From a virus: a DNA stretch of 27,797 nt. Below the pieces are notes generated by a model. The model saw only the letters and a program-made list of their open reading frames with translations, did not search any database and had not been told where the DNA came from. Shown piece by piece: positions 15,040 to 24,817 of the stretch. Position numbers and translations under genes: made by a program. The stretch spans positions 1 through 27,797 of the IMG/VR virus record IMGVR_UViG_3300035698_020630; one strand, 5' to 3'. Positions within the stretch are counted from its first letter, which is position 1, and every line of letters starts with the position of its first letter.

Positions 15040-15657
15040 ATGAAAATTATTTATAACGGAAATGAAGTCTACGAACTCAGCGAAACTCAAAAGAAGGTGA
15101 TCAGGAATGATATCCCCTCAGAAAAGTTTGATTCTGATATGACACGTCGGTGCAAGTACTGGCTTGAGGTTCCAAGTGAAAAAGATGCGAACAAAAATAA
15201 AGATAAATATAAAGAAAATCTTCAGAAGAATGGTAAAACCTCTGTCCCAACTGACTCTCTTAAATTAGCGGTGTCTAATGCTGAAGAATTCCCGTGTCCA
15301 TGTGGCTACTCAGATATTGAAGCTAGACAATGTACAGTCGGAGATCAATCTTTTGAATTCTCAGCGAATCACCAAAAAGTTTGGCGTAAGACTCAAGAAA
15401 GTATGCAACAAGACCGGACCGCTGAAGAGTATGTAATGCTGGAAGAAAAAACCCTTGGCGACCGGATGGCTTGGGTTCTAAAGCATAAATACGAAAGATG
15501 CCTAGCGAGATTAAAGCTTGTCTGGATGCCTAAGCTTTTAGAAAGAGGTATTGATGAAGTCCCGGCAGATGATGAAGCTCTGGCAGAATTAATCTTTTCA
15601 CAAGCCGACTACAAAAATAGATCAGAAAGAGAGTTAGAATCAAAGGAAGTGAAATAA
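15040..15657 (+). CDS. Conserved phage protein with a Cys-containing central insert
   Basis: 205 residues, ribosome site AAGGA. The N-terminus (MKIIYNGNEVYELSETQKKV) and C-terminus (MAWVLKHKYERCLARLKLVW, then LIFSQADYKNRSERE) match, from memory, a shorter phage protein of about 100 residues that sits among fibre genes. Between them is an extra part of about 95 residues with FPCPCGYSDIEARQC. The pieces DMTRRCKYWLE and DRMAWVLKHKYE look like an echo of each other, so part of the insert may be a duplication. A fibre chaperone or assembly role is possible but unproven. Confidence 0.55.
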   Translation: MKIIYNGNEVYELSETQKKVIRNDIPSEKFDSDMTRRCKYWLEVPSEKDANKNKDKYKENLQKNGKTSVPTDSLKLAVSNAEEFPCPCGYSDIEARQCTVGDQSFEFSANHQKVWRKTQESMQQDRTAEEYVMLEEKTLGDRMAWVLKHKYERCLARLKLVWMPKLLERGIDEVPADDEALAELIFSQADYKNRSERELESKEVK

Positions 15658-16349
15658 TGGTTTACAACAACGCAATAAACTTAGATGACTCAGGCATTAT
15701 AACAGCTGATGGGTCAGGCGGCTTTACAGGTAGTACAGTAACTCAATATGGAGTGTTGGTTGGCGATGCGTCCAATACAGTGGCATCTACAGCAGTAGGA
15801 ATAGCCGGCCAAATTTTAAGAAGCAACGGAGCAGGAGTTGCACCAACATTTCAAGCAGCAGGAGGAGCAGGAGGTTTAGTTTTTATCTCTTCATCAACTG
15901 CATCGGCTGGGGATTTAGAAGTAGCTTTAACAGGAGGGTATAAAACTTATATGTTTGTTGTAAGCAATTTCCAAAATGCGACATCGAATGGACATCTTGA
16001 AATGGTACTGTCAGATGATGATGGAGTTTCTTATAAAACCACATCATATAATCATGGTTTTCAACACAACGGATGGAACTCGGCAACAATAACCAATTAC
16101 TCACCAGGAGACGCATGTACTCTTATAATAAGAAGTGGTGGAGCCGAAGGAGCCGGAAATTTCTTTGTGGATGTAGGGTCAGTAGCAGACAACCCCCAAA
16201 TTTGGGGAATGGGCAATTATACAAATGGAATGGGATACCATGGGGGAGGATACAGCGGGGATATCCTGGTAGATAAAGTAAAATTTCAAGTAGCTACAGG
16301 AACACTAGCAACAGGTACTTTTCTATTATACGGACTCGCATCAAGTTAA
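15657..16349 (+). CDS. Tail fibre-like protein, shared N-terminal anchor, unique C-terminus
   Basis: 230 residues, TAATG overlap with the upstream gene. Residues 1-32 (MVYNNAINLDDSGIITADGS, then FTGSTVTQYG) are the anchor shared with the next two fibre genes. A short linker of the AGQILRSNGAGVAPTFQAAGG type follows. The C-terminal domain (about 76-230) has a jelly-roll-like pattern (YKTYMFVVSNFQNA, then VDKVKFQVAT and LLYGLASS) unlike those of its neighbours. The gene ends inside the left copy of a 107-bp direct repeat. Confidence 0.65.
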   Translation: MVYNNAINLDDSGIITADGSGGFTGSTVTQYGVLVGDASNTVASTAVGIAGQILRSNGAGVAPTFQAAGGAGGLVFISSSTASAGDLEVALTGGYKTYMFVVSNFQNATSNGHLEMVLSDDDGVSYKTTSYNHGFQHNGWNSATITNYSPGDACTLIIRSGGAEGAGNFFVDVGSVADNPQIWGMGNYTNGMGYHGGGYSGDILVDKVKFQVATGTLATGTFLLYGLASS

Positions 16350-16452
16350 CAAAAACACCTACATGAAGATAGAAGAAAGTTACGAAGGAAAGCCAGCTCT
16401 TTACATTTTCTTGGTAAGCTTGTTCTGCATAATAGCTTTGATCGTAGGAGGA
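16346..16452 (+). repeat. 107-bp direct repeat, left copy
   Basis: Matches 18443-18549 at 105 of 107 positions by direct reading. The two differences are A/G in AGCC[A/G]G and C/T three bases to its right in the next codon. The repeat spans the fibre stop codon, almost all of a tiny membrane-protein gene, and the GTAGGAGGA ribosome site of the following gene. Confidence 0.9.
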
Positions 16453-16479
16453 AAATTATGGCTTACAACAACGCACTAA
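16363..16479 (+). CDS. Tiny membrane protein, copy 1 (38 aa)
   Basis: Begins MKIEESYEGKPALYIFLVSL and has one membrane helix (about residues 13-29), then VGGKLWLTTTH. The last eight codons overlap the start of the downstream fibre gene in another frame. No clear ribosome site. It is supported by the nearly identical copy at 18460, where one of the two base changes is silent and the other is Ala to Val. The unique end suggests this copy is a duplicated fragment joined to the fibre leader. Possible holin-like or small membrane regulator. Confidence 0.45.
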   Translation: MKIEESYEGKPALYIFLVSLFCIIALIVGGKLWLTTTH

Positions 16480-17312
16480 ATTTAAACACTACAGGAGTTG
16501 TGACAGCTGATGGGTCAGGCGGCTTTACAGGTAGTACCGTAACCCAATATGGAACAGTTGTTGCATTAGCCAGTGACGGAATTTCTTCAGTAGCTCCTTC
16601 AGCAACTTCAGGAATTCCGTTAATCTCACAAGGTTCTTCGGCTAACCCAACTTATGGAACAGCTGTGGTAGCAGGAGGAGGAACAGGACGTGTTTCACAC
16701 ACCGCATATTCTGTCCTTTGTGGAGGGACAACAACTACAGCGGCTCAACAATCTGTTGCTAGTGTTGGGACTTCAGGACAAATCTTACTATCAAATGGAG
16801 CAGCCCTACCCTCATTTCAGACAATCGGAGGAGCTACATTCGCCTCTGCATTTAATGCATACCAAGGATCTACAGACGCAAACGAAACAGGGGACTCAAC
16901 AAGATACATTTTAGGAGATACCGATGTTGGTACTGCTTTAACAGAACGAATTGATACGGGATCAGATTTTGTAACTGGATCATCCACCGGGGCAACATAT
17001 ACAGCACCTTTTGACGGAAGCCTAAAGCTAAATTATTTTATACTTTTGCAAGATGTCGCCACTAATCATGATTTGACCTTAGCTATAATAACGAGCAACG
17101 AAGACTACGAATATGGAGATTATGGTACAGGCGCTTCTGGGACTGGGTATATCTCTGGGAATTTCCCTATTTCTTGGTGTATGTTAACGGATATGGATGC
17201 AGCAGACATTTGCACTTTCGAAGTTTTTTGTAATTATGGATCAAAAGTAATAGATATTTTTGGATCAGGCACCGTACCTAGGACAGTAGTCTCAGGATTT
17301 TTAATACCTTAG
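16458..17312 (+). CDS. Tail fibre-like protein with C1q-like C-terminal domain, copy A
   Basis: 284 residues. Its ribosome site GTAGGAGGA comes from the 107-bp repeat. Residues 1-32 are the shared anchor. Residues 33-127 hold the fibre repeat type AVVAGGGTGRVSHTAYSVLC and SVGTSGQILLSNGAALPSFQ. Residues 130-284 (SAFNAYQGSTDANETGD, ILGDTDVG, then TYTAPFDGSLKLNYFILLQD) resemble C1q/TNF-type jelly rolls, which form trimers. It is a close paralog of 17322-18161, with near-identical DNA at both ends. Likely receptor-binding. Confidence 0.7.
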   Translation: MAYNNALNLNTTGVVTADGSGGFTGSTVTQYGTVVALASDGISSVAPSATSGIPLISQGSSANPTYGTAVVAGGGTGRVSHTAYSVLCGGTTTTAAQQSVASVGTSGQILLSNGAALPSFQTIGGATFASAFNAYQGSTDANETGDSTRYILGDTDVGTALTERIDTGSDFVTGSSTGATYTAPFDGSLKLNYFILLQDVATNHDLTLAIITSNEDYEYGDYGTGASGTGYISGNFPISWCMLTDMDAADICTFEVFCNYGSKVIDIFGSGTVPRTVVSGFLIP

Positions 17313-17321
17313 AGGAAAATT

Positions 17322-18161
17322 ATGGCTTACAACAACGCACTAAATCTAGACATCACAGGAGTTGTGACAGCTGACGGGGACGGCACTTGGACAGCAAGTA
17401 CAGTGACTCAATATGGAACAGTTGTTGCAGGTGCTACCAATACTATTTCCTCAGTAGCTCCTTCAGCAACTTCAGGAGTGCCTTTTATTTCACAAGGTTC
17501 TTCCGCAGACTCTGCTTATGGAACAGCTGTGGTAGCAGGAGGCGGAACAGGACGAGCAACACAAACCGCTTATGCTGTATTGTGCGGAGGGACAACAACT
17601 ACCGCAGCTCAACAATCAGTTGCAAGTGTTGGAACAAGCGGGCAGGTTTTGACATCTAATGGAGCAGCCGCGTTACCTACTTTTCAGGATGCACCAACGG
17701 GTATAACTTCTGCATTTAATGCATACCAAGGAACTACAGACGCAAACGAAACAGGAGATGGAACAGCTTTCTTTCTTGGCGATACGGATGTTGGAACAAC
17801 TCTTACAGAAAGGATAGATCTAGGGGGTGATTTCACCCCTGGAGCATCAGGAGGAGCAGTTTACACGGCTCCAGAAGATGGCAGTTTACAAATAGATTAT
17901 TTCATCCTGATACAAGGCTTAAATACATCGCATACAATCACGTTAGATATTATATCTAGTAACGAGACATACACATATGGAAACTATGGATCAGGATATA
18001 TAAATGCTAACTTCCCAGCAACAGTCACGATTTTGACAGATATGGACTCAGCGGACACATGTACTTTTGATGTTGTAGTCTCATCTTCAACGAAAATAGT
18101 CGATATTTTTGGATCTGGCACCGTACCTAGGACAGTCGTGTCAGGGTTTTTAATAACTTGA
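17322..18161 (+). CDS. Tail fibre-like protein with C1q-like C-terminal domain, copy B
   Basis: 279 residues, AGAGGA ribosome site. The domain order is the same as in copy A: anchor 1-32, linker with VAGGGTGRATQTAYAVLCGG, and a jelly-roll-type C-terminus from ITSAFNAYQGTTDANETGD. The two copies match closely at the N-terminus and in the last 17 residues (FGSGTVPRTVVSGFLI), but the middle of the C-terminal domain has diverged. Two fibres with different binding surfaces would result. The stop lies one base from the stop of the opposite-strand gene. Confidence 0.7.
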   Translation: MAYNNALNLDITGVVTADGDGTWTASTVTQYGTVVAGATNTISSVAPSATSGVPFISQGSSADSAYGTAVVAGGGTGRATQTAYAVLCGGTTTTAAQQSVASVGTSGQVLTSNGAAALPTFQDAPTGITSAFNAYQGTTDANETGDGTAFFLGDTDVGTTLTERIDLGGDFTPGASGGAVYTAPEDGSLQIDYFILIQGLNTSHTITLDIISSNETYTYGNYGSGYINANFPATVTILTDMDSADTCTFDVVVSSSTKIVDIFGSGTVPRTVVSGFLIT

Positions 18162-21987: not shown

Positions 21988-22014
21988 GATAGTGATTCCT
22001 TTTTGTTTGTTTAG

Positions 22015-22043
22015 TTGTATTCTAACTCAATAACATATATCAT
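22015..22043 (+). promoter_or_regulatory. Possible rightward promoter overlapping the leftward one
   Basis: TTGTAT, 17 bases, TATCAT. The -35 is weak. It overlaps the leftward promoter so closely that both could not be occupied at once, which would make the region a switch. It would start a short leader for 22084-22272. Confidence 0.35.
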
Positions 22044-22048
22044 ATCAA
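22019..22048 (-). promoter_or_regulatory. Leftward promoter of the recombination operon
   Basis: On the minus strand, TTGATA (complement of 22043-22048), 18-base spacer, TAGAAT (complement of 22019-22024), five of six matches in each box. Predicted start near 22012, giving a leader of about 25 bases with AAGGA. Confidence 0.55.
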
Positions 22049-22083
22049 GTGAAAATAACACAAATAAACACAAAGGAACAAAT

Positions 22084-22272
22084 ATGAGCGATACAGAATG
22101 GCTTACAGTAGAGGATGTAATAGCGAGCTACCCGTTTTCAAGAGGGGTTTTTAGGCTGATGCTTTTTAAGAGAGATTCCAACGGACTGTCTATTGCTGTA
22201 AGGAAGATAGGAAAAAAGATTTACTTAAGGAAAGATCTTTTAGACAAATGGATTGACGATCAGGTTGAATAG
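22084..22272 (+). CDS. Excisionase-like helix-turn-helix protein
   Basis: 62 residues from ATG 22084, which has AAAGGA seven bases before it; the frame upstream of this Met is leader sequence. The sequence MSDTEWLTVEDVIASYPFSR, then VRKIGKKIYLRKDLLDKWID, is the pattern of small MerR-like/HTH_17 proteins such as excisionases and Cox-type regulators: a helix-turn-helix followed by a two-strand wing. No integrase is in the window, so a regulatory role at the divergent promoters is more likely than excision. It is the first rightward early gene. Confidence 0.75.
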   Translation: MSDTEWLTVEDVIASYPFSRGVFRLMLFKRDSNGLSIAVRKIGKKIYLRKDLLDKWIDDQVE

Positions 22273-22277
22273 AAAAC

Positions 22278-22331
22278 GAGGGGCAGGTGTGTAATCCTAC
22301 CCCTCAACCATAAGGAGATTGCGTGATCTCC
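22278..22331 (+). other. Double stem-loop element i
   Basis: Hairpin 1: GAGGGG-c-AGG, loop of eight, CCT-a-CCCCTC (22278-22305), with one C-A mismatch. Hairpin 2: GGAGAT, TGCGTG, ATCTCC (22314-22331), perfect. Eight bases separate them. This is the first of four such pairs in the replication region. Hairpin 2 includes an AAGGAG that precedes a GTG. Confidence 0.7.
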
Positions 22332-22440
22332 AAAAAAACTTAAGTGCATTGACTCATATAGAACTTGACCATGAAACTGAGGTGTCATGTTACTTGAGAT
22401 CTTATGAATTTTTTATTTTTGAGTAAACAAAAAAGAACAC

Positions 22441-22467
22441 ATCCTTTAGTTTTGATAGTTAAAGGAT
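22441..22467 (+). promoter_or_regulatory. Hairpin that hides the ribosome site of the next gene
   Basis: ATCCTTTA (22441-22448) and TAAAGGAT (22460-22467) are perfect complements with an 11-base loop. The right arm is the ribosome site of the ATG at 22473. In RNA it could shut translation until melted or bound by a protein. Confidence 0.6.
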
Positions 22468-22472
22468 AAAAT

Positions 22473-22835
22473 ATGCTTATAAACCTAGAAGACGCAAGTA
22501 AAAATATAACTATACCAAGTGTTGTCTACTCGTTAAATTTGTCTCTTGGGGCCATCTCTTTGTATGGTTATTACCTGATGATTGCAGACGAAAATGGAGA
22601 AGTCATAAAAACCAACTTTGAAATCTCCAATGTACTCCGAATTACCTCTAGAACTATCTTGAGCTATCGACGCGAACTTGAGAAGGAAATTCACAAAGAC
22701 GGGAAGTCTCTTATTCAAGTCGAAAAGCAAGTAAACGGCAGGACACATACGGTAAAAGTAATAGATATCAATGAAGAAAACGAAAGCTTTTTTAGCGCTT
22801 TAAACAAAAAGGGCCCTCAAGAAAGAGAGCCCTAA
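22473..22835 (+). CDS. Helix-turn-helix protein of replication-initiator type, small paralog 1
   Basis: 120 residues. The segment ITIPSVVYSLNLSLGAISLY, then YYLMIADENGEVIKTNFEIS and TSRTILSYRRELEKE, has the order strand, helix, helix-turn-helix seen at the N-terminus of phage replication organisers and DnaD-like proteins. A Lys-rich wing (IQVEKQVNGRTHTVKVI) follows. No C-terminal domain is present. Translation may be controlled by the hairpin over its ribosome site. Its stop lies inside double stem-loop ii. Likely a regulator of replication or of its own operon. Confidence 0.6.
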   Translation: MLINLEDASKNITIPSVVYSLNLSLGAISLYGYYLMIADENGEVIKTNFEISNVLRITSRTILSYRRELEKEIHKDGKSLIQVEKQVNGRTHTVKVIDINEENESFFSALNKKGPQEREP

Positions 22836-22856
22836 CTATGTTAAACAGGTCTGTTT
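22810..22856 (+). other. Double stem-loop element ii
   Basis: Hairpin 1: AGGGC-c-CTC, AAGAAA loop, GAG-a-GCCCT (22810-22833), again with a C-A mismatch three pairs from the loop. Hairpin 2: AAACA, GGTC, TGTTT (22843-22856 with one inner pair opened). It overlaps the end of the upstream helix-turn-helix gene and precedes a small gene at 22903. Confidence 0.6.
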
Positions 22857-22902
22857 CCATTGTACTACGAACAAAACAAACCAAACAAAAAGTAGATTCA
22901 TT

Positions 22903-23055
22903 ATGATCCATTATAGAACAATAAGTCAACATAAAAATAACAACATAATTAATTGTTATCCTAAAACGCACTCACAAGTATCTGTCGAGGCATTTTTGTA
23001 TAATTTAACAAAAGAAGATCAGGAAAAGGATTGCTCCAAATTATGGTACAAATAG
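22903..23055 (+). CDS. Small hypothetical protein (50 aa)
   Basis: Begins MIHYRTISQHKNNNIINCYP and ends TKEDQEKDCSKLWYK. The start has a weak GTAG element 9 bases upstream, in the same place as GTAGG before the two larger genes of this series, and it too follows a double stem-loop and an A/C-rich leader. These parallels are my main reason to call it. It may be a shortened relative of the neighbouring helix-turn-helix genes; residues 26-45 look helical. It fills most of the otherwise empty stretch 22836-23174. Confidence 0.4.
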   Translation: MIHYRTISQHKNNNIINCYPKTHSQVSVEAFLYNLTKEDQEKDCSKLWYK

Positions 23056-23100
23056 CGTTTATCTTTCGGAAAAACACGAGAGCAATTAGAATAAAAAAAA

Positions 23101-23149
23101 AGCGGCTGTAACAAGCAGCCGCTAATTCCGAGTTACAATAAAGTAACTC
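23101..23149 (+). other. Double stem-loop element iii
   Basis: Hairpin 1: AGCGGCTG, TAACAAG, CAGCCGCT (23101-23123), perfect, preceded by nine A, so it is also a minus-strand terminator. Hairpin 2: GAGTTAC, AATAAA, GTAACTC (23130-23149), perfect. The linker is AATTCC. The layout is nearly the same as in element iv, with different stem bases. Confidence 0.8.
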
Positions 23150-23174
23150 TATACTCAACAAAAGTAGGTACAAT

Positions 23175-23567
23175 ATGAATCATACAAGCACTTTAAGTCA
23201 AGATCAAGAAACATTTGAGATATATGAAGAAAAACCAGATCACTACTATAGAACAGAAATACCAAATATTATATTTGATTTGGGTTTAGATCCCATTTCT
23301 TTTAAGTTGTACCTTTCTCTAAAAAAGCTTGTTGGTAATGAAGGATATTGCACAGACTCAAACGCCTCGATAGGTTTCCTGGTAGGGGAAAGTGATTTTA
23401 TAATAAGAAAGCACAAAAAAATCCTAGCAAAACCATTTCTTCTTTTGGGAAACATGCCATTAATCAAGATTACTAAAAGGAAAATAGGTAACAGACCGAA
23501 CGAAACCGATCTTGTAACACTCACTCCTATTTGGCGTGTAAGTGGCGATTACCTTTCAAGAAAATAA
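23175..23567 (+). CDS. Helix-turn-helix protein of replication-initiator type, small paralog 2
   Basis: 130 residues. YRTEIPNIIFDLGLDPISFK, then LYLSLKKLVGNEGYCTDSNA and SDFIIRKHKKILAKPF, match the winged-helix N-terminal domain of phage replication proteins. The residues EGYCTDSNASIGFL parallel FGYCTASDAQLAKM of the 23667 protein. It lacks the long tail of that paralog and ends after the wing (TDLVTLTPIW). Its leader holds double stem-loop iii and GTAGG. A truncated initiator acting as regulator or loader is plausible. Confidence 0.65.
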   Translation: MNHTSTLSQDQETFEIYEEKPDHYYRTEIPNIIFDLGLDPISFKLYLSLKKLVGNEGYCTDSNASIGFLVGESDFIIRKHKKILAKPFLLLGNMPLIKITKRKIGNRPNETDLVTLTPIWRVSGDYLSRK

Positions 23568-23589
23568 AGAAACAAATAGAATAAAAAAA

Positions 23590-23638
23590 ACGACTGGTGA
23601 CAGCCAGTCGTAATTCCGGGTTACTGATTTTGTAACCC
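23590..23638 (+). other. Double stem-loop element iv
   Basis: Hairpin 1: ACGACTGG, TGACAG, CCAGTCGT (23590-23611), perfect, preceded by an A-run (minus-strand terminator form). Hairpin 2: GGGTTAC, TGATTTT, GTAACCC (23618-23638), perfect. The linker AATTCC and the flanking AGAATAAAAAAAA match element iii. Confidence 0.8.
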
Positions 23639-23666
23639 CCAACCTAAAAAACGTAGGACCATACTA

Positions 23667-24524
23667 ATGTATAACACCCCTTCTAGTCAAGATCAAGTTA
23701 ACAATAATGAAAAAGAACTATATTTACCAAAATTTTGTCTTGTTCCCCTTTCCGTCCGAGAAGATAGAAAAGTCCCAGATTCAGCAAAAATCTATTTAGG
23801 CGAAATAAATGTGTTAACCAATAAATTTGGTTACTGTACTGCTTCAGATGCCCAGCTCGCTAAAATGAAAGGTGTTTCTGTCGCAACTATAAAATCTTGG
23901 CATACCGTCCTAGAAAAAAGAGGTCATATCAAAAGAGACACATGGAAAGAACATATTCGAACAGAAAGAGGGGTCGAAGTGAGGTCACGAAGGAAACTAT
24001 TTGTCTTTGATGACGTTTCAAAAAAAGATGCTGAAGGCCAGATTTCTATACCTCGCAGTGAAGGCCAGATTTCTAGACCTCGGAGTGAAGGCCAGAATTC
24101 TGGCCCCATAACAAAAGAACTACAAAACAAGAATAACAACAAACCCGACTCACCAAAGGTTGTTGTTGTTTTTTCTTCTCTGGAGAGGTTAGGTTTAAAA
24201 GACAGTTATTCTTCAAGAATCTCTAAAGAATATTCTGAGAAGGAGGTAGACTTAGCCGTCTCAAGAGTCGAGAGTCAATCAACAATCGACAACCCAGCGG
24301 GATCGCTAACCTACTGGCTCAAAAATCCTGATAAGTACGAAGACCCGAAAGTAAATCCCCTTTGGGAGTCCAGAAGATCATATTCTAAAGAAATAAGTGA
24401 AAGGCGCCGAGAATGCTATGCCTTCTGTCCAGTTAAAGACTCTTTATTTTACTTTTCTGGAGCTGTTGAGACTGAATACAAAATCAAAGCAGCAAATGAA
24501 TTTTGGGAAGAGCAGGCAATGTGA
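23667..24524 (+). CDS. Replication initiator-like protein (HTH N-terminus, NPAG-type C-terminus), carries the candidate origin
   Basis: 285 residues. The winged-helix part is at 20-118: LPKFCLVPLSVREDR, FGYCTASDAQLAKMKGVS, and TIKSWHTVLEKRGHIKRDT. Residues 122-148 are a tandem repeat (AEGQISIPR, SEGQISRPR, SEGQNSGPI) in a region that is polar and probably disordered. Residues 160-235 contain VVVVFSSLERLGL and NPAGSLTYWLKNP, a motif typical of phage and plasmid initiators. It probably binds the repeats in its own gene and recruits the host helicase, as lambda O does. The GTAGGA leader site is far from the ATG. Confidence 0.7.
   Translation: MYNTPSSQDQVNNNEKELYLPKFCLVPLSVREDRKVPDSAKIYLGEINVLTNKFGYCTASDAQLAKMKGVSVATIKSWHTVLEKRGHIKRDTWKEHIRTERGVEVRSRRKLFVFDDVSKKDAEGQISIPRSEGQISRPRSEGQNSGPITKELQNKNNNKPDSPKVVVVFSSLERLGLKDSYSSRISKEYSEKEVDLAVSRVESQSTIDNPAGSLTYWLKNPDKYEDPKVNPLWESRRSYSKEISERRRECYAFCPVKDSLFYFSGAVETEYKIKAANEFWEEQAM
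24033..24167 (+). other. Candidate replication origin: three iteron-like repeats, A-rich tract, inverted repeat
   Basis: 27-base units start at 24033, 24060 and 24087 (GAAGGCCAGATTTCTATACC, GAAGGCCAGATTTCTAGACC, and a third ending in the perfect palindrome GGCCAGAATTCTGGCC at 24090-24105). Each core is a full or partial palindrome. Positions 24106-24143 are A-rich with few T or G. Then AACAACAAACC (24135-24145) pairs with GGTTGTTGTT (24158-24167). This order matches the lambda origin within gene O. Confidence 0.65.
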
Positions 24525-24559
24525 TTGAACTTAAAAAAAAGACAATATAAAGTAAAAGT

Positions 24560-24817
24560 ATGAAGCTACAAATTCTTGAGTTTAAGCGTTGCACCCGAGA
24601 TGGGGCTAAGATCTATGGAAACCTGAAGATCTCAATCAACGAAAGTTTTCACTGCTGGCTAACAGTTCTCAAGAGCGAGAAGTTTGGATTCTTCTTTCGA
24701 TATCCAAGCTCTTTCATCGAGGGAAAGTTTGAGCCAAGCTTTGAGTTTAAGAAAGGCGACTTCCAAAAAGAAGCTTACACAACGCTCAAAGATCAATTCA
24801 AACAGGAGCACGGGTGA
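24560..24817 (+). CDS. Small hypothetical protein upstream of RusA (85 aa)
   Basis: The sequence GNLKISINESFHCWLTVLKS, then FGFFFRYPSSFIEGKFEPSF, is a beta-strand pattern with a faint likeness to SpoVG-type single-domain DNA-binding proteins, too weak to name. No clear ribosome site; a TTGAAC (24525-24530) and TATAAA (24546-24551) stand 15 bases apart just before the ATG, so the message may be leaderless. It overlaps RusA by four bases, so it belongs to the DNA-processing group. Confidence 0.6.
   Translation: MKLQILEFKRCTRDGAKIYGNLKISINESFHCWLTVLKSEKFGFFFRYPSSFIEGKFEPSFEFKKGDFQKEAYTTLKDQFKQEHG

Follow-up and report, generated by a model that had tools for sequence, protein, structure and literature searches.

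Four tandem minus-strand terminator elements before initiator-related genes of an environmental phage: probable OOP-like antisense RNA genes

The OOP RNA of bacteriophage lambda is among the classical small RNAs; what it does in replication has been disputed for decades. In plasmids, counter-transcribed RNAs (R1 CopA, the ColIb-P9 Inc RNA, and the RNAs of pT181 and pIP501) control rep genes. Folded between its known end points, the 77-nt lambda OOP RNA forms two stem-loops, the second of which is a U-tailed terminator. The length of 77 nt is confirmed in the literature (PMC3349717). Lambda pO directs synthesis of this short leftward RNA, which is antisense to cII and acts through RNase III; pO activity lowers transcription from pR, and loss of pO impairs replication (PMC3985674). 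When present together, oop and the origin can silence replication, and the oop sequences of lambdoid phages share a conserved stretch of 33 bp (PMC3349717). Antisense RNAs are also known from other phages, an example being sar of P22 (PMC12197685).

The DNA analyzed here, referred to as the window, is the whole 27,797-nt stretch of virus record IMGVR_UViG_3300035698_020630. The original prediction described four double-hairpin elements (i–iv) among its replication genes and stated that no named family resembles them. The latter proved incorrect, since their layout matches that of pO-oop-tO, located before lambda gene O (PMC3985674, PMC3349717). We propose, with a probability of roughly 70%, that the elements are four tandem lambda-OOP-like antisense RNA genes, encoded on the minus strand before initiator-related genes (Table 1).

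The hairpin pairs were located where they had been predicted, the second hairpin of element ii being weak. Compared with dinucleotide shuffles, the folding of elements i, iii and iv was far above chance and that of ii modestly so (z-scores for i/ii/iii/iv of -4.6/-1.8/-6.6/-4.8 on the plus strand and -4.2/-2.4/-5.4/-3.0 on the minus strand); the modest value of ii is explained by its second hairpin, which has only five pairs. Element ii folded much better on the minus strand (-20.2 versus -15.6 on plus). The features said to be common to iii and iv (A-run, AATTCC linker, spacing and GTAGG motif) are indeed present in both, and the compensating changes between them were confirmed: when the stems are aligned inward from their outer ends, 7 of the 15 pairs have both bases altered, and every pair remains intact. 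Such changes affect 6/8 pairs of hairpin 1 and 1/7 pairs of hairpin 2, and the differences in hairpin 1 may represent replacement rather than stepwise change. The double hairpins are not an artefact, and the suggestion that a folded molecule is under selection finds support.

By sequence, the four elements cannot be aligned with one another (alignable sequences number two or three). No match was obtained when region 22000-24600 was compared by blastn with 50,697 phage records, lambda among them, or when the DNA pattern of elements iii and iv was run on viral contigs. No Rfam family reached its gathering cut-off; this says little, because lambda oop itself does not match any Rfam family either.

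Each of the four elements is closed on the minus strand by a U-tailed intrinsic terminator. Within 22250-23680 (1.43 kb), four minus-strand terminators with dG <= -12 were observed versus 0.13 expected (mean of 150 shuffles; largest shuffle count, 2), while there were none on the plus strand. The minus-strand U-run had been predicted for iii and iv, where it is indeed found, but it is not limited to them. The suggested role as minus-strand terminators likewise holds, yet these terminators appear to end dedicated RNAs with promoters of their own.

Table 1. Positions of observed and predicted features (window coordinates; repeats of relatives are given by locus)
Feature	Position	Strand	Remarks
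Hairpins, element i	22278-22305 + 22314-22331
Hairpins, element ii	22810-22833 + 22843-22857		second hairpin weak, 5 bp
Hairpins, element iii	23101-23123 + 23130-23149
Hairpins, element iv	23590-23611 + 23618-23638
Terminator stem i	22306-22277	minus	dG -18.9, then U-run
Terminator stem ii	22833-22810	minus	then U-run
Terminator stem iii	23123-23101	minus	then U-run
Terminator stem iv	23611-23590	minus	then U-run
Weak candidate promoter i	22399..22427	minus	TTTACT-17-TAAGAT; 74 nt before start of gene 22473
Putative promoter ii	22900..22929	minus	TTGACT-18-CATAAT; above 99.5% of control starts
Putative promoter iii	23172..23201	minus	TTGACT-18-CATATT; start in top 1% of controls
Putative promoter iii, alternative	23207-23179	minus	TTGATC-17-TATGAT; overlaps; best-scoring site at iii
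Putative promoter iv	23661..23690	minus	TTGACT-18-TAGTAT; top 1% of control starts
Predicted antisense RNA i	22270..22392	minus	about 123 nt; terminator and fold
Predicted antisense RNA ii	22803..22893	minus	about 91 nt; terminator and fold
Predicted antisense RNA iii	23093..23165	minus	about 73 nt; two stem-loops
Predicted antisense RNA iv	23583..23654	minus	about 72 nt; two stem-loops
62-aa HTH_17-like gene	22084..22272	plus	Pfam HTH_17 E=0.003, below cut-off; upstream of element i
SD-pairing hairpin	22441..22467	plus	ATCCTTTA...TAAAGGAT; pairs with SD of gene 22473
120-aa protein	22473..22835	plus	alignment: weak similarity to initiator N-terminal domain
50-aa ORF	22903..23055	plus	codons 8-9 (SQ) = -35 of promoter ii
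130-aa RTEIPN-family initiator-like protein	23175..23567	plus	relatives and alignment
285-aa replication initiator, O-like/DnaD-like	23667..24524	plus	PHROG 19658 replication initiation E=1e-10
Three 27-bp direct repeats, candidate origin iterons	24032..24112	plus	inside 285-aa initiator gene
Iteron-like repeats of relatives	L034 5088-5154; L035 5385-5483; L036 5423-5466; L043 1100-1166; L046 3383-3455

Promoter-like sites directed leftward were found at elements ii, iii and iv, ending 3, 3 and 6 nt before start codons 22903, 23175 and 23667, respectively; their -10 boxes reach the start codon of the gene that follows, and that of promoter ii takes in its complement. Against a control set of 194 further start codons from the retrieved loci, the starts of ii–iv ranked in the top 1%. 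The same script placed lambda pO (TTGAGT-17-CATAAT) with its end 3 nt ahead of the O start codon and gave it a score below those of ii–iv. It should be noted that the three putative promoters are not independent events, because their -35 box is a Ser-Gln codon pair common to the three genes. The candidate at element i did not exceed shuffles (p=0.37), which counts against the antisense reading.

According to the proposed mechanism, each element would fire leftward from a promoter, which in ii–iv sits at the start codon of the gene downstream. The resulting transcript, predicted at ~72–123 nt, would fold into stem-loops, halt at its own U-tailed terminator, and be fully complementary to the stretch of mRNA between two replication genes. 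It could pair with passing early mRNA, leading to RNase III cutting between the genes, and/or the opposing promoter could slow rightward transcription, as described for lambda pO/oop; how much of each initiator-type protein is made, and when, would be set in this way. We infer RNA synthesis from the terminators, their strand and the fact that they recur in relatives, together with the promoter-like sites, all of which are read from the sequence. A role of the RNA mainly as an SD blocker was dropped for ii–iv, the predicted RNA start covering the SD only partly.

The predicted RNAs overlap the upstream gene by ~33 nt in the case of ii (gene 22473) and by 3 nt in the case of i, while those of iii and iv do not overlap it. 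Exact complementarity between the predicted RNAs and one another's leaders is at most 9 nt, and therefore each would probably act mainly on its own leader. Cross-duplexes of iii and iv are also weaker, at about -50 kcal/mol compared to -126 and -133 kcal/mol with their own leaders.

The genes following elements i–iii encode shorter, initiator-related proteins, and element iv precedes the 285-aa initiator, which matches O-like and DnaD-like families as well. Neither the 120-aa protein nor the 50-aa ORF gave a family hit; the latter may be a remnant initiator paralogue. In the module, Erf and RecE-like genes form a block on the minus strand; on the plus strand there follow the small HTH gene, the genes of initiator type and then RusA. 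Elsewhere in the window, the tail-fibre-like proteins of three adjoining genes (15657-18161) have segments in common, repeated at the N-terminus and in the middle (AYNNALNL..., GTSGQ). The large terminase gene lies near the right end, and past it neither a portal nor a capsid gene was recognised (window 1-27797); the phage genome is probably incomplete in this contig.

Iteron-like repeats of 22-27 bp were observed inside the initiator gene, in the same gene part, in the window and in 5/5 relatives tested; by analogy with lambda O they are likely to be the origin. Their position bears on a further possibility, namely that the hairpins are DNA or single-strand origin elements serving as priming or initiation sites. 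The hairpins do lie in a replication module, beside the candidate origin, but the candidate iterons sit inside the initiator gene, outside the elements, and both the polarity of the terminators and the promoters would be left unexplained, which makes this explanation very improbable. Priming sites and plus-strand RNase processing sites, both among the roles originally suggested, found no support.

A search with the 130-aa protein identified a family with an RTEIPN motif (relatives L037-L080), whose matches to PHROG replication-initiation families are weak to moderate only, and which appears to be unnamed. The leaders of its genes are mostly 100-250 nt long and rich in inverted repeats, without a common sequence. 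Antisense terminators (dG <= -12, <= 260 nt upstream) were found upstream of 18 of the 27 family genes, three of which come from the window, compared to 19/222 other genes and, among other tandem genes separated by gaps of 60 nt or more, 6/62. For sense terminators, the counts were 1/27 family genes and 16/222 other genes. Between the terminator and the gene start, the best minus-strand promoter exceeded shuffles (Fisher p=0.0026, 22 loci; p=0.021 without the window loci), while plus-strand promoters in the same intervals showed no excess (p=0.92). Half of the relatives do not have an outstanding antisense promoter, which counts against the antisense reading.

These data also bear on whether minus-strand or bidirectional terminators alone are present, blocking stray antisense transcription without any dedicated small RNA. 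The terminators are indeed the strongest signal, and the promoters are weak in many relatives. However, the lambda-like position of the sites at ii–iv, the enrichment of minus-strand promoters between terminator and start codon, and the extra stem-loop kept upstream of the terminator all argue for more than termination, and we regard this alternative as unlikely.

It was also considered that the hairpins act as plus-strand leader structures, for translation control or for cutting and stabilising the polycistronic mRNA, in which case hairpin symmetry and A-rich leaders would account for the minus-strand features. In agreement with this, the SDs of family genes are less accessible than those of controls (median 0.31 versus 0.49, p=0.0006), and long plus-strand stems with G-U pairs occur in L046/L049/L052, L043 and L060. 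An SD-masking stem is present in several relatives (e.g., L040, L044, L046 and L051) and at window element i, after which the SD of gene 22473 has an accessibility of 0.09. However, the SDs following ii, iii and iv are open (0.50-0.62), the A-run precedes the hairpin and no T-run comes after it, and the C-A mismatch reported for hairpin 1 of i and ii does occur on the plus strand, being a G-U wobble on minus. Explaining the elements by the mRNA leader alone thus seems improbable. Over all hairpins the G-U wobble bias is a lean only (27 versus 20), which counts against the antisense reading.

The relatives that can be aligned, L046, L049 and L052, have a terminator helix in which 30/30 cells are paired on the minus strand, compared to 27/30 on plus, and a single pair is changed on both sides; their covariation does not exceed shuffles, three sequences being too few for a covariation test. 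A longer plus-strand stem, read from the alignment (TTAATCAGAGTGA with TCATTCTGATTAA in L046), has double changes that stay paired and G-U pairs on plus, as expected if leader mRNA and antisense RNA are both selected. The minus strand folded better in 17/22 regions, a count biased by the choice of regions.

The original prediction had turned on whether homologous elements exist in related phages. Homologous loci were found, and they keep the architecture, not the sequence; by sequence, the elements have no close relatives. The high-GC relatives L070, L074 and L077 do not carry the element, which counts against the antisense reading. Initiator homologues in phages of Gram-positive bacteria (Lactobacillus, Staphylococcus and Acetoanaerobium) lie in tight operons without a leader; the feature is therefore not universal. 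Relatives recognised through terminase and tail proteins were not found to encode the initiator, and with the relatives as query no match was obtained in the plasmid collection or by phage tblastn.

Several loci carry further structures. Long-range plus-strand stems of ~20 bp lie directly before the initiator start in L048 (2865-2960) and L060 (2795-2945); the stem of L060 is followed by TTTTT and may thus be an attenuator of transcription instead of an antisense unit. Large inverted repeats precede a small gene upstream of the initiator in L034 (4109-4242), and in L036 (4440-5005) the initiator comes after a short paralogue of its N-domain that has a structured leader of its own. Series of initiator-type genes with structured leaders recur (L034, L036).

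More tentatively, we suggest that RTEIPN initiator genes with internal iterons form a wide unnamed class in which each gene would have its own antisense RNA and structured leader; the window would then be a four-fold array whose hairpins diverged against cross-talk, amounting to plasmid-like dose control in phages. The window phage may control its replication genes by four OOP-like RNAs rather than one. The same layout, occurring without sequence similarity before initiator genes of environmental phages, suggests a general solution, and an array of largely non-crossing RNAs offers a natural test of RNA pairing versus opposing transcription.

Among known systems, plasmid counter-transcribed RNAs resemble the elements in that an antisense RNA (predicted here) lies within the structured leader of an initiator gene, and in the SD-masking stem of window element i and some relatives; they differ in that the window locus is a phage early operon and the leaders of iii and iv do not have such a stem. 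P22 sar likewise belongs to a phage early region and is a small cis-antisense RNA, as predicted here, but its target is an antirepressor gene, not replication genes. Lambda OOP is closer. It shares (i) a leftward promoter at the initiator start (ii–iv at -3, -3 and -6 versus -3 in lambda), which element i does not convincingly match, (ii) a short RNA (predicted 72-123 nt versus 77 nt) with two stem-loops, the last a terminator, although the second stem of element ii deviates, (iii) an O-like initiator with internal iterons, here after element iv, and (iv) a setting with a minus-strand Erf/RecE block and RusA. In contrast, lambda has one unit and the window four in series; the 3' part of OOP overlaps the end of cII, whereas iii and iv are wholly intergenic and no cII homologue was shown in the window; and similarity to lambdoid oop sequences was not detected. 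Because of this lack of sequence similarity, and since the predicted RNAs iii and iv have no overlap with the gene upstream, descent from lambda OOP is not established. By analogy, the best reading is that the elements would function like lambda OOP, as a variant of that arrangement.
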